Assembly: GCA_944325685.1 (NCBI GenBank)
Contig: CALVBC010000030.1
Span: 1-36,020, forward strand
Length of the DNA stretch: 36,020 nt
From: an uncultured Erysipelotrichaceae bacterium
Lineage (GTDB): Bacteria; Bacillota_I; Bacilli_A; Erysipelotrichales; Erysipelotrichaceae
Direction: 5' to 3'
Under the pieces are notes generated by a model. That model had not been told where the DNA came from and ran no database searches. It saw nothing but the letters and a program-made list of their open reading frames with translations. The translations under genes and the position numbers were made by a program. This document shows positions 32,579-35,766 of the stretch, piece after piece; the stretch's first letter is position 1; every line of letters begins with the position of its first letter.

Positions 32579-32608
32579 TTGAAAGCTATAAAGCCTTAGG
32601 AGTATAAT
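32579..32608 (+). promoter_or_regulatory. Promoter upstream of the AAGC-repeat leader ORF
   Basis: TTGAAA (32579-32584) and TATAAT (32603-32608) are separated by 18 nt. The predicted start lies on the A of the ATG at 32615. This is the only good promoter between the ribosomal terminator and the surface-protein gene, so it probably drives both the leader ORF and, if the next hairpin is passed, the surface protein. Confidence 0.6.
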
Positions 32609-32614
32609 AAGGCC

Positions 32615-32701
32615 ATGAAAAGGTTCTTGACAACATATATAAACAGCGAAATACTCAAGCAAGCAAGCAAGCAAGCAAGCAAGCAAGCAAGCAAGCACTA
32701 A
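32615..32701 (+). CDS. 28-codon leader ORF containing a frame-switching tetranucleotide repeat
   Basis: The ORF starts at ATG 32615 and stops at TAA 32699-32701. The first 14 codons give MKRFLTTYINSEIL. The next 13 codons lie in the AAGC tract and repeat the four-residue unit KQAS. A 4-nt unit shifts the frame whenever one unit is gained or lost. With nine or twelve units the frame continues to a TAA at 32760-32762 inside the downstream hairpin loop; with eleven it stops at 32710-32712. There is no normal ribosome-binding site between the predicted start and the ATG; AGGAG at 32598-32602 overlaps the promoter. Real expression is not proven. Confidence 0.45.
   Translation: MKRFLTTYINSEILKQASKQASKQASKH
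32657..32696. repeat. Tandem AAGC microsatellite, ten units
   Basis: Ten uninterrupted AAGC units (40 bp) are present. Perfect tetranucleotide tracts of this length are classic slippage hotspots in phase-variable bacterial loci. It lies 119 bp upstream of the surface-protein start. Confidence 0.95.
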
Positions 32702-32747
32702 CTATGCGATAAAGAACTTATTCTTAACAAAGGGTACTTTTTATAAG

Positions 32748-32781
32748 GCGCTTAATGTCTAAAAGACATGAGCGTCTTTTT
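32748..32781 (+). terminator. Terminator or attenuator hairpin before the surface-protein gene
   Basis: The inner stem ATGTCT/AGACAT has an AAA loop. After a one-base bulge, CGCTT pairs with the outer arm AGCG plus a G-U pair, and then TTTTT follows. No clear promoter is seen between this hairpin and the GGGGAGG ribosome-binding site at 32800-32806. Transcription of the surface protein therefore probably has to pass it. Confidence 0.7.
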
Positions 32782-32814
32782 AAGTATTTGCACATCTAAG
32801 GGGAGGAATACTAA

Positions 32815-35766
32815 ATGAAGAGAATGCTTACTATAGTCTTATCGCTCTTAATGGCGATAGCTGTATTTAGTCCAGTTTTGGCTGAAGATATCATCTTTAT
32901 TTGGGATGAAGAAGATCTTGTTCAATATCTTTCAGATGACACGGATACTTATCAAAGGTTTTCGTTAGAGAACAGTATTGGTTTAAGCGAAACTCTAGAA
33001 ATTAACAGAGATAATTTTTATCTGGATATGCGTAACAGACAAATTTTCGCTGGGAACAGTTTTGTATGCAACGATACAGATGATTGCCCACTAGTCGAAA
33101 TAAAAAGTGCAAGTGGAGTTTCAATTGAATATGGTTCCTTTAGAGCTAACGCAATAAATAAAAATGTATTGTCCGTCGATGATTCGGAAATAGAAGTGAA
33201 TTATATAGATTTCTATGGAAACTCAATAGATTCAAATGCTTTGATAATAAAAAATGGATCAAGTTTTAAGGTCAATGGAAAAGAATCCTATGGAACTAGA
33301 TACGGTGATATTATTTTTCATTTGAATCATGATAGTAAAGCTCCTATTGCTATCGATACAACAAGTATTTTTGTTGTTGATTATGCGAATATCGGTATTA
33401 ATTGCGATCCTAATCGAAGTACTGCTATATTTGAATTGATTAAAAATGGTAGTGAAGTACCAAGCGGAATGATCGATTTATCCTACTCATATATTAATGG
33501 CGATCTTGATAATAACACGGTTCTGATCGGTGATGATATTGATGATAATAAAGCAGTCAACGCCGAAAAAGCTACAATAGAATTACCGTGGGAACAAGAA
33601 GCTGACTCAACCAATATTATTAGCAATAATGGTATTTATAGCATAGTTTATGATGAACATGACAACTTTTTAGCACATTGTGTATATGGTATGTGTGGTG
33701 CTTCTGGAAGAGAACCTTACATGCCTAATAGTGAACAGTCAAAGAATTTAGTTAAAGAGTTGAATTCAGAAGAAAATAAGGAAATAGTACTAGATAACGA
33801 TTACGATATCAATGTTCATGGAACTGAAGAATATCCATACATTTACATAAAGGGAGATAAAACGATAGATCTAAACGGCTTTAGCATAGAGGCTGATATC
33901 AACCATGATAATGGTGACACAGCATTGATCGTCGTTATGCCAGGTGCATCACTGACTATCAAAGGAAGTTTCAATGAAGAAAGAGGATTTGAAGGTGGAG
34001 GAATAACTGGTTCAAAACCTACATACACTATTTTAAACCTCGGTGAATTAGTGATCGAAAATGATGTGCGTATTAGTAACAACACATATGGAGAGATAAA
34101 AGAAGATGTTTATGGTATATACAATGGATCGATCGATGGGGAAATAAATAACACAGTTATCGAAGGAGTTGATAATGATGAAATCTCTTTGATCTTTAAA
34201 GGGTCTAGTGTTTCAGGGACAGAAGAGATAGGACATTGTGATAGAGTTGATTCATCACAGATCAAAATCTTAAACGGTAGCTTTTCTAATTATAAGACGA
34301 TCGAAGATTATGTATTAGGCAATAAGGATGTAGCGTATGCTATGTTTGATGGCTTCTACACAACACATCTTGTTGGTGATAGTATAGAAGAATCGGTTAG
34401 ATCGGTATCGGATGGCGATTACTCTGCTGAGGTTACTGAATACACAGTATATCAAGGTAAGATTATGATCGATGATGTAATGCCAGGTATTACTTTTACT
34501 AATAGAGGTGAAAACAAAAATACCAACCTTCATATAAATAAACACAAAGTAAAACCAGGACAAAGATACGTCGTTCCTAACGGAGATTATCGTTCAGCTG
34601 TTTCTGTCGGATTTAATCAAGATGCGACGATCGATCATATCAGCGAGAAAATAAGCAATGACATAGGCAGTGCTTATGAAAATGAAATGATCGACAAAAC
34701 GACAAGAGATAATCTTAGTGTAATAAAAGAATATAATTCTAGTTTGAAGTTTAAACCAACTCAAGATCAAGCCGATGCTCAAGATGTCGCAAGTATTGAA
34801 AGTCAAATCTCTTCTGATAAAAATATCCTAGAAAGCTTTGATCTGTCTCTAGAATTCTTTTCCACTGGAGAAGATGGTGTATACAAGGTTGGAAATGTAA
34901 ATGACATTGGCGAAGATGAGATTGAGGTTACTATTGAACTAGCTGATGAATATAAAGATTATGATGGAGAATTCTCGATCATGACCGTTCACGATGGTGA
35001 AGTAAGCAGCTTAGAAACTCAAAAGCAAACCATCTCATACGAAAACGAAACTAATGAAGAAGAGACAGAAGTACAATTGAAATTCAAAACAAGTAAGTTC
35101 TCAACATACTCGATCGTCTATGATGGAGAAATATCTGATACTGGCGAAACGGAAGAACCTGAAAAACCAGAAGAGACAACTATCGAAGTTCCTTCAAATA
35201 GACCTTCCAGTCCGTCATATTCTGACACAGTTGATGTCACAATACCAAGCAATCTAAATTACGATATCCCAGAAAGTACGATGAAGGGTCTAGATTCTAC
35301 ACTTGATGATATCTTAGATATGGTCGACGATAGAAAGGATATATCGACATCGATCATGAGCGAAGAAACATTAAATGCTCTAAAGGAAGCGATAAACGAT
35401 GATAAAGATATCTCTATTGAGTTATCACTATCGAATCTAACGCCAACAAGTGATCAAAGACTAGTTAGAAAATACTTTGATGATGTATTACGCTTCTTTG
35501 ATCTTAGTGTATATCTATTAGCTGATGGTGAAAGGATCGGTATTATAACATCACTTCAAGAAAAGATCGAAGTGGAAGTCACAGAGATAGAAGAAGCTGA
35601 TGATCTATATGTATATCGTGTTCATGATGGTAAACTTGAGTTTGTTGATGAGCTAGTCGATAGTGATAATGATGGTATATTAGAGTTCTTTGCCGATAAG
35701 TTCTCCACATATGCGATCATAAAGGGTGCTAGGCCGACGATAGTCGTTGAAACCAGTGCCAGATAG
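32815..35766 (+). CDS. Large secreted surface protein, beta-helix-like, with duplicated C-terminal domain
   Basis: The 983-residue product has a Sec signal peptide (MKRMLTIVLSLLMAIAVFSPVLA, cleavage near residue 23). Residues about 25-330 and 330-560 show repeated short strand patterns (for example TIDLNGFSIEADI and ALIVVMPGASLTIKGSF), like right-handed beta-helix adhesins and polysaccharide-binding proteins. An acidic linker rich in Pro, Glu and Thr lies near 775-805. It follows one copy of a domain ending SKFSTYSIVYDG and precedes a second ending DKFSTYAIIKG. No LPXTG motif or C-terminal helix is present, so how it stays on the surface, if it does, is unclear. GGGGAGG lies 8 nt from the ATG. 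Codon use (more ATT, ATA and GTT) differs from the ribosomal genes. Confidence 0.88.
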   Translation: MKRMLTIVLSLLMAIAVFSPVLAEDIIFIWDEEDLVQYLSDDTDTYQRFSLENSIGLSETLEINRDNFYLDMRNRQIFAGNSFVCNDTDDCPLVEIKSASGVSIEYGSFRANAINKNVLSVDDSEIEVNYIDFYGNSIDSNALIIKNGSSFKVNGKESYGTRYGDIIFHLNHDSKAPIAIDTTSIFVVDYANIGINCDPNRSTAIFELIKNGSEVPSGMIDLSYSYINGDLDNNTVLIGDDIDDNKAVNAEKATIELPWEQEADSTNIISNNGIYSIVYDEHDNFLAHCVYGMCGASGREPYMPNSEQSKNLVKELNSEENKEIVLDNDYDINVHGTEEYPYIYIKGDKTIDLNGFSIEADINHDNGDTALIVVMPGASLTIKGSFNEERGFEGGGITGSKPTYTILNLGELVIENDVRISNNTYGEIKEDVYGIYNGSIDGEINNTVIEGVDNDEISLIFKGSSVSGTEEIGHCDRVDSSQIKILNGSFSNYKTIEDYVLGNKDVAYAMFDGFYTTHLVGDSIEESVRSVSDGDYSAEVTEYTVYQGKIMIDDVMPGITFTNRGENKNTNLHINKHKVKPGQRYVVPNGDYRSAVSVGFNQDATIDHISEKISNDIGSAYENEMIDKTTRDNLSVIKEYNSSLKFKPTQDQADAQDVASIESQISSDKNILESFDLSLEFFSTGEDGVYKVGNVNDIGEDEIEVTIELADEYKDYDGEFSIMTVHDGEVSSLETQKQTISYENETNEEETEVQLKFKTSKFSTYSIVYDGEISDTGETEEPEKPEETTIEVPSNRPSSPSYSDTVDVTIPSNLNYDIPESTMKGLDSTLDDILDMVDDRKDISTSIMSEETLNALKEAINDDKDISIELSLSNLTPTSDQRLVRKYFDDVLRFFDLSVYLLADGERIGIITSLQEKIEVEVTEIEEADDLYVYRVHDGKLEFVDELVDSDNDGILEFFADKFSTYAIIKGARPTIVVETSAR

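Follow-up and report, generated by a model that had tools for sequence, protein, structure and literature searches.

The DNA analysed here, called the window, is a stretch of 36,020 nt on contig C30 of genome G000, an assembly of an uncultured Erysipelotrichaceae bacterium (1.36 Mb in 31 contigs). Between a ribosomal-protein operon (rpoA-rplQ) and the gene of a 983-residue secreted protein, the window contains a promoter, P1, a short leader open reading frame (ORF) with an AAGC repeat, and an intrinsic terminator (Table 1). A terminator-like hairpin after rplQ ends the operon and sets the leader apart from it. The array is perfect over 42 nt, its ten AAGC units occupy positions 32657-32696, and its tandem-repeat score is the highest in the window (84, against 64 for the runner-up). 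The terminator hairpin (32745-32778) has a folding dG of -17.4 and a z-score of -4.5, and no shuffled sequence was equally stable. The hairpin is bulged, and it is absent from the list of a simple terminator scan of the window. An Rfam search of the window at the gathering score returned nothing except one tRNA, and the 983-residue protein contains no LPXTG motif and matched no family above the cut-off in a Pfam search.

We name the leader frames after their predicted states, ON for the frame that runs into the terminator and OFF for the other two. In the window, the OFF-frame stops lie ~43 and ~32 nt ahead of the left arm of the hairpin, and the ON-frame stop spans the boundary between the left arm and the loop of 3 nt. 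The first-pass annotation had described the same promoter, ten-unit ORF, hairpin with T run, ribosome-binding site and gene start, and had counted by hand where the leader would stop with nine to twelve units, including the stop at the junction of left arm and loop; the description is confirmed, and the counted stops agree exactly with our coordinates. It had also seen no second promoter. A promoter scan of the + strand from the hairpin to the coding sequence likewise found no promoter-like site, but the annotation had overlooked a promoter-like element, P2, within the leader itself.

Table 1 Features of the leader locus in the window.
Feature	Position	Strand	Details
Upstream terminator-like hairpin	32548-32574	+	TAAAGCTCC-GCAA-GGAGCTTTTA, dG -11.8
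Promoter P1	32579-32608	+	TTGAAA-N18-TATAAT, 11/12 matches
Leader ORF as assembled (predicted OFF)	32615-32701	+	28 codons, MKRFLTTYINSEILKQASKQASKQASKH; ATG is predicted +1
Candidate long-range pairing, 5' arm	32617-32628	+	GAAAAGGTTCTT
Embedded promoter-like element P2	32627-32655	+	TTGACA-N17-AATACT, 10/12 matches; abuts repeat start
AAGC array	32656-32697	+	Ten AAGC units and, in the same period, two flanking bases
ON-frame extension	32698-32762	+	STNYAIKNLFLTKGTFYKALNV; 9 or 12 units; stop TAA 32760-32762
Early OFF-frame stops	32699-32712	+	TAA 32699-32701 (10 units), TAA 32710-32712 (11 units)
Candidate long-range pairing, 3' arm	32712-32723	+	AAGAACTTATTC
Intrinsic terminator	32745-32781	+	Left arm 32745-32760, loop 32761-32763, right arm 32764-32778, T run to 32781
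Shine-Dalgarno of surface-protein gene	32798-32806	+	AAGGGGAGG
Secreted-protein gene (983 residues)	32815-35766	+	Signal-peptide-like N terminus; C terminus TIVVETSAR

The leader ATG has no well-placed Shine-Dalgarno sequence, and it lies only 6 nt past the -10 hexamer of P1, which predicts a leaderless start. Most homologous leaders have an extended -10 of the TGNTANNNT type with the start codon 6-8 nt further down, and are predicted to be leaderless as well. The related leaders in G241, G121 and G000 C11 instead have Shine-Dalgarno-like sequences. Inverted repeats of 5-7 bp flank the -10 of P1 in the window (32591-32613) and at loci L032, L037, L039 and L040, and their sequences vary (GCCTTA..TAAGGC, CCTTAGA..TCTAAGG, TCAAATA..TATTTGA). 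The DNA upstream of P1 in several leaders from two species (L032, L033, L037 and L039) has in common a sequence near TGTCTACTTTATTAAATCACTTCA; palindromes with TCTGTAGACA or CTACATTC are located further upstream.

Homologous leaders and their reading frames

About 30 homologous leaders were found in six genomes: G000, G002 and G005, which belong to one genus, G065 and G121 from other genera of the family, and G241 from another family of the same order. The leaders share a layout in which a repeat within a short ORF is followed by an intrinsic terminator and then by a secreted-protein gene or, twice, a TetR gene. The repeats in the leader ORFs are (AAGC)n, (GTCA/CAGT)n, (AGCC)n or (AGCAG)n, and no unit length is divisible by three. 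The terminators differ in sequence among leaders and keep their position. A search of the genus for AAGC identified two arrays in G005, six in G002 and others on three further contigs of G000, where two contigs apparently carry opposite ends of a single locus. Apart from one copy in G005, every array lies in a leader with the shared layout. Beyond the genus, AAGC leaders were found in G065, G121 and G241. Leaders with (CAGT)16 and (GTCA)15 were reached through relatives of the window protein, sequence models of the halves before and after the repeat contributed (AGCC)n, (GTCA)n and (AGCAG)n leaders, and an (AGCAG)8 array with its 5-base unit has the identical layout. There are several leaders per genome and more than ten in G005. 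Arrays of this kind are rare across wide samples taken at family, order and class level; (AGCAG)6 is confined to G000 among 395 genomes in the wider class sample, and an exact-match search of the window leader against GTDB contigs gave no match.

The exceptional copy in G005 (contig C95; L036, ~6359-6510, - strand) is in frame within a putative HAD-hydrolase gene and has neither its own P1 nor a terminator, which suggests an insertion or an assembly chimera. An AAGC array in G040 was rejected as a leader, as it sits in a putative type I restriction specificity gene, named from its sequence. There, (AAGC)9 lies between the two halves of the gene (L132, contig C97, 1503-1538) with TTGACA-N17-CATAAT just upstream, which could be a chance product of the encoded LLT or be relevant to the role of P2. 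Contigs break at several arrays; these breaks might reflect length polymorphism or simple repeat collapse, and they carry no weight in the argument.

Of 19 leaders, 18 have a long frame that extends as far as the terminator (expected 11.2 ± 1.9), and in 12 both other frames are closed early as well (expected 4.6 ± 1.8); the expectations come from dinucleotide shuffles of the spacer, and the counts overstate independence because the leaders are related by descent. The other frames usually meet a stop within ~20 nt of the repeat end. About ten leaders have their long-frame stop inside the loop or immediately next to it, five (G000 C2, C23 and C13; G002 C43 and C75) at the left arm or a few nucleotides before it, and three (G002 C34; G005 C4 and C12) beyond the terminator. 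Examples of ON-frame extensions in homologs are YNYVVKTIFLKENTFNKALMSI and SYVIENLFLDNKNFYKAPIILDM. One leader, G065 C43, is an exception in which no frame reaches the terminator. On another contig of this genome (L044, C39, from 1892-2065 onward), the long leader frame crosses the terminator and merges with the frame of the surface-protein gene. The window and most other leaders are assembled in the predicted OFF state, and four leaders of G005 (C88b, C114, C12 and C93) in the ON state; such a mixture is expected of a phase-variable family.

A proposed repeat-controlled attenuator and its precedents

These observations suggest that the locus is a phase-variable transcription attenuator, in which the frame set by the repeat decides whether the terminator is read through; we estimate the probability of this reading at about 0.8. 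With one assembly per species, the parts, the frames and their recurrence are seen directly in the DNA, while slippage in vivo, leader translation and frame-dependent readthrough are what we infer from the anatomy, readthrough having been demonstrated only in the Streptococcus gallolyticus counterpart described below. RNA polymerase would initiate at P1, at or adjoining the leader ATG, and slipped-strand events would add or remove AAGC units and thereby determine in which frame ribosomes exit the repeat. Two of the frames would lead the ribosome to a stop 1-12 nt past the array, far upstream of the hairpin, which would then be free to fold and end transcription; this is the predicted OFF state, assembled here with ten units. 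In the third frame (nine or twelve units) the ribosome would stop within the hairpin and cover its left arm, so that the polymerase may continue into the surface-protein gene (ON). The first-pass annotation had proposed that one frame in three switches the gene on by such occlusion of the terminator. The homologous leaders support this proposal well, because the repeat unit, the terminator sequence and the leader start vary among them and the geometry persists.

The annotation had also held that this combination was not known, and in this it was wrong. The same mechanism has been demonstrated in S. gallolyticus (Danne et al. 2014, PMC3894217), so that the earlier interpretation is partly supported, right about the mechanism and mistaken about its novelty. 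At the pil1 locus of that species, GCAGA units are gained or lost and the length of the leader peptide changes accordingly; where the leader is long, its end falls within or past a premature terminator and transcription rises. Removal of the terminator locks expression high, removal of the leader start locks it low, and pil3 has the same arrangement (PMC3894217). The likeness to the window is one of layout, with a non-triplet repeat in a leader ORF followed by an intrinsic terminator and the gene of a surface structure. In attenuators of the pil1/pil3 type the short frame ends at least 28 nt before the hairpin and the long one in or beyond it, as in the window. Judged by this layout, the window leader would work like pil1. 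The GCAGA unit is also cyclically the same as the AGCAG arrays of G005 and of G000 C13, a match that may be due to convergence or exchange.

The systems differ in several respects. The pil1 and pil3 leaders have a ribosome-binding site, whereas the window has an ATG with no well-placed Shine-Dalgarno sequence and most loci are apparently leaderless. One frame in three is low at pil1 and pil3, whereas one in three is predicted to be ON in the window. The two streptococcal loci compare with many per genome here, mostly with tetranucleotide units, with a TetR gene among the targets and with the conserved, embedded P2. The scale, the lineage, the tetranucleotide units, the apparently leaderless starts, the TetR target and P2 are what is new relative to the precedent.

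In attenuators of the Escherichia coli pyrBI type, the leader ORF extends into an intrinsic terminator, whose hairpin is prevented by a ribosome that follows closely. The window leader resembles pyrBI in this overlap and in the predicted action of the following ribosome; unlike pyrBI, which is tuned by UTP and polymerase pausing, its frame is set genetically by the repeat number. As in Neisseria nadA, where phase variation works by promoter spacing (PMC2791445), slipped-strand repeats lie upstream of surface-protein genes. Unlike in that mechanism, the repeat here lies past P1 as well as P2, and its unit is of a length that shifts a reading frame. At the tetranucleotide loci of Haemophilus influenzae (PMC2651432), slippage likewise alters a frame, which there is that of the controlled protein itself and here that of the leader. 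In a sister species, a relative of the surface protein (L007, G006:C76, upstream of 1501) is preceded by TTGACA-AAATGTC(G)10-TACCAT, and by its sequence this poly-G tract of ten in the promoter spacer is a case of classical promoter-spacing phase variation.

The embedded promoter-like element and alternative readings

P2 is the most conserved part of the leader element. TTGACA is found in all leaders for which the upstream region is included, nearly always 23-27 nt before the repeat. It is also found in leaders obtained from the repeat or protein search alone, so the model search did not create it. NANNNT follows TTGACA at 17 or 18 nt in 23 of 24 distinct leaders, with near-zero counts at spacings of 10-16, and in the leaders of the six genomes P2, with its perfect -35, ends 0-6 nt before the repeat. 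The reading frame of P2 varies by leader (CTT GAC in some, TTG ACA in others), so its conservation is at the level of DNA or RNA, not of peptide. For the single-promoter arrangement of the pil1/pil3 type, P1 lies upstream of the leader and no promoter lies past the terminator, yet P2 is conserved, and the attenuator model leaves this conservation unaccounted for. We know of no described attenuator with a part like P2.

Candidate roles for P2 are a sigma-dependent pause that loads ribosomes, a second promoter that is always attenuated, and a promoter that destabilises the repeat. Sigma-dependent pauses are known in E. coli (PMC7876045, PMC4604602). That P2 is a functional part of the switch, either as a sigma-dependent pause aiding loading and coupling of the first ribosome on a nascent leader that is often leaderless or as a promoter that opens the repeat DNA and thereby makes slippage more frequent, is a tentative suggestion to which we give a rather low probability. 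Lower still, and in our judgement improbable, is that P2 is a working promoter whose transcripts start in the repeat, with the repeat number exerting its effect via the 5' UTR or the initial transcribed region instead of a reading frame. The nearly invariant spacing of the two hexamers and their nearly fixed distance to the repeat, independent of the leader frame, speak for such a promoter. However, the -10 of P2 hardly ever begins with T, whereas the -10 of P1 is good; transcripts from P2 would also be without the leader start, and the conserved start codon, the open ON frame and the stop pattern would be unexplained.

The open ON frame could also mean that the product of the leader is a small, phase-variable protein with a function of its own, with the terminator simply ending its transcript. 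The ON-frame peptides are indeed similar among paralogs ([NY]YV[IV]xxLFLKENTF), with a BLOSUM score of 1.82 per site against 0.80 ± 0.31 for permuted columns. Substitutions nevertheless show no third-position bias (601/495/597), the open frame is kept in other genera while the peptide is not, one and the same DNA is translated in different frames in the N-terminal halves, and a gene with its own Shine-Dalgarno sequence follows the terminator at nearly all loci. The aligned post-repeat segments contain one stop in the ON frame, compared with 34 and 12 in the others; together with the lack of third-position bias, these counts fit a frame kept open for the ribosome better than a functional peptide, and we consider the small-protein reading very improbable. 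We assign the smallest chance to an unstable repeat that has no regulatory role, with a leaky or bypassed terminator and frame-independent expression; the same geometry with different units before many secreted-protein genes and a TetR gene argues otherwise.

An amino-acid attenuator of the trp type was rejected, as the residues encoded by the repeat vary among paralogs (ASKQ, SVSQ, ASQP, AEQSR) and the targets are not biosynthetic genes, and phase variation by promoter spacing was rejected for the window because the repeat is downstream of both P1 and P2. A conserved AU-rich hairpin between repeat and terminator, first noticed by eye, was likewise discarded (mean z only -0.6 over 18 leaders). 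Long-range pairing around the repeat is stronger for cognate than for permuted arms (-193 against -164 ± 9.4 kcal/mol, p 0.0016) but is absent from many leaders, and such a helix is only suggestive.

Genes behind the leaders

If the attenuator reading is true, uncultured gut Erysipelotrichaceae possess a whole family of switches based on a mechanism known from one streptococcal species, and the ON or OFF state of a locus could be deduced by counting its repeat units in any genome or metagenome read. Each switch would be able to toggle its secreted protein independently. In two genomes (G000 C13 and G005 C93) a TetR-family regulator gene lies behind the leader, which there carries (AGCAG)n (loci L108, 2568-3137, - strand, and L113, 1744-2337, + strand), so the switch may also act in trans through the regulator. 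The leader family further offers many natural variants for the study of translation-coupled antitermination.

Proteins with a shared C-terminal motif were searched against Pfam and NCBIfam and matched no family above the cut-off, and they contain no LPXTG. The motif, [IV][VI][DNE]T[SA]x[KR], ends nearly all secreted proteins behind the leaders, as at 35740-35766 in the window and at L032, L034, L035, L037-L039, L107, L110, L111, L114, L116, L043 and L044. Examples are TIVVETSAR, FMIVDTSTK, IIVDTATR and IIVNTSTK, and a C...W(S/N)EE..AC segment often precedes the motif, which is possibly an unrecognised sorting or secretion tag.
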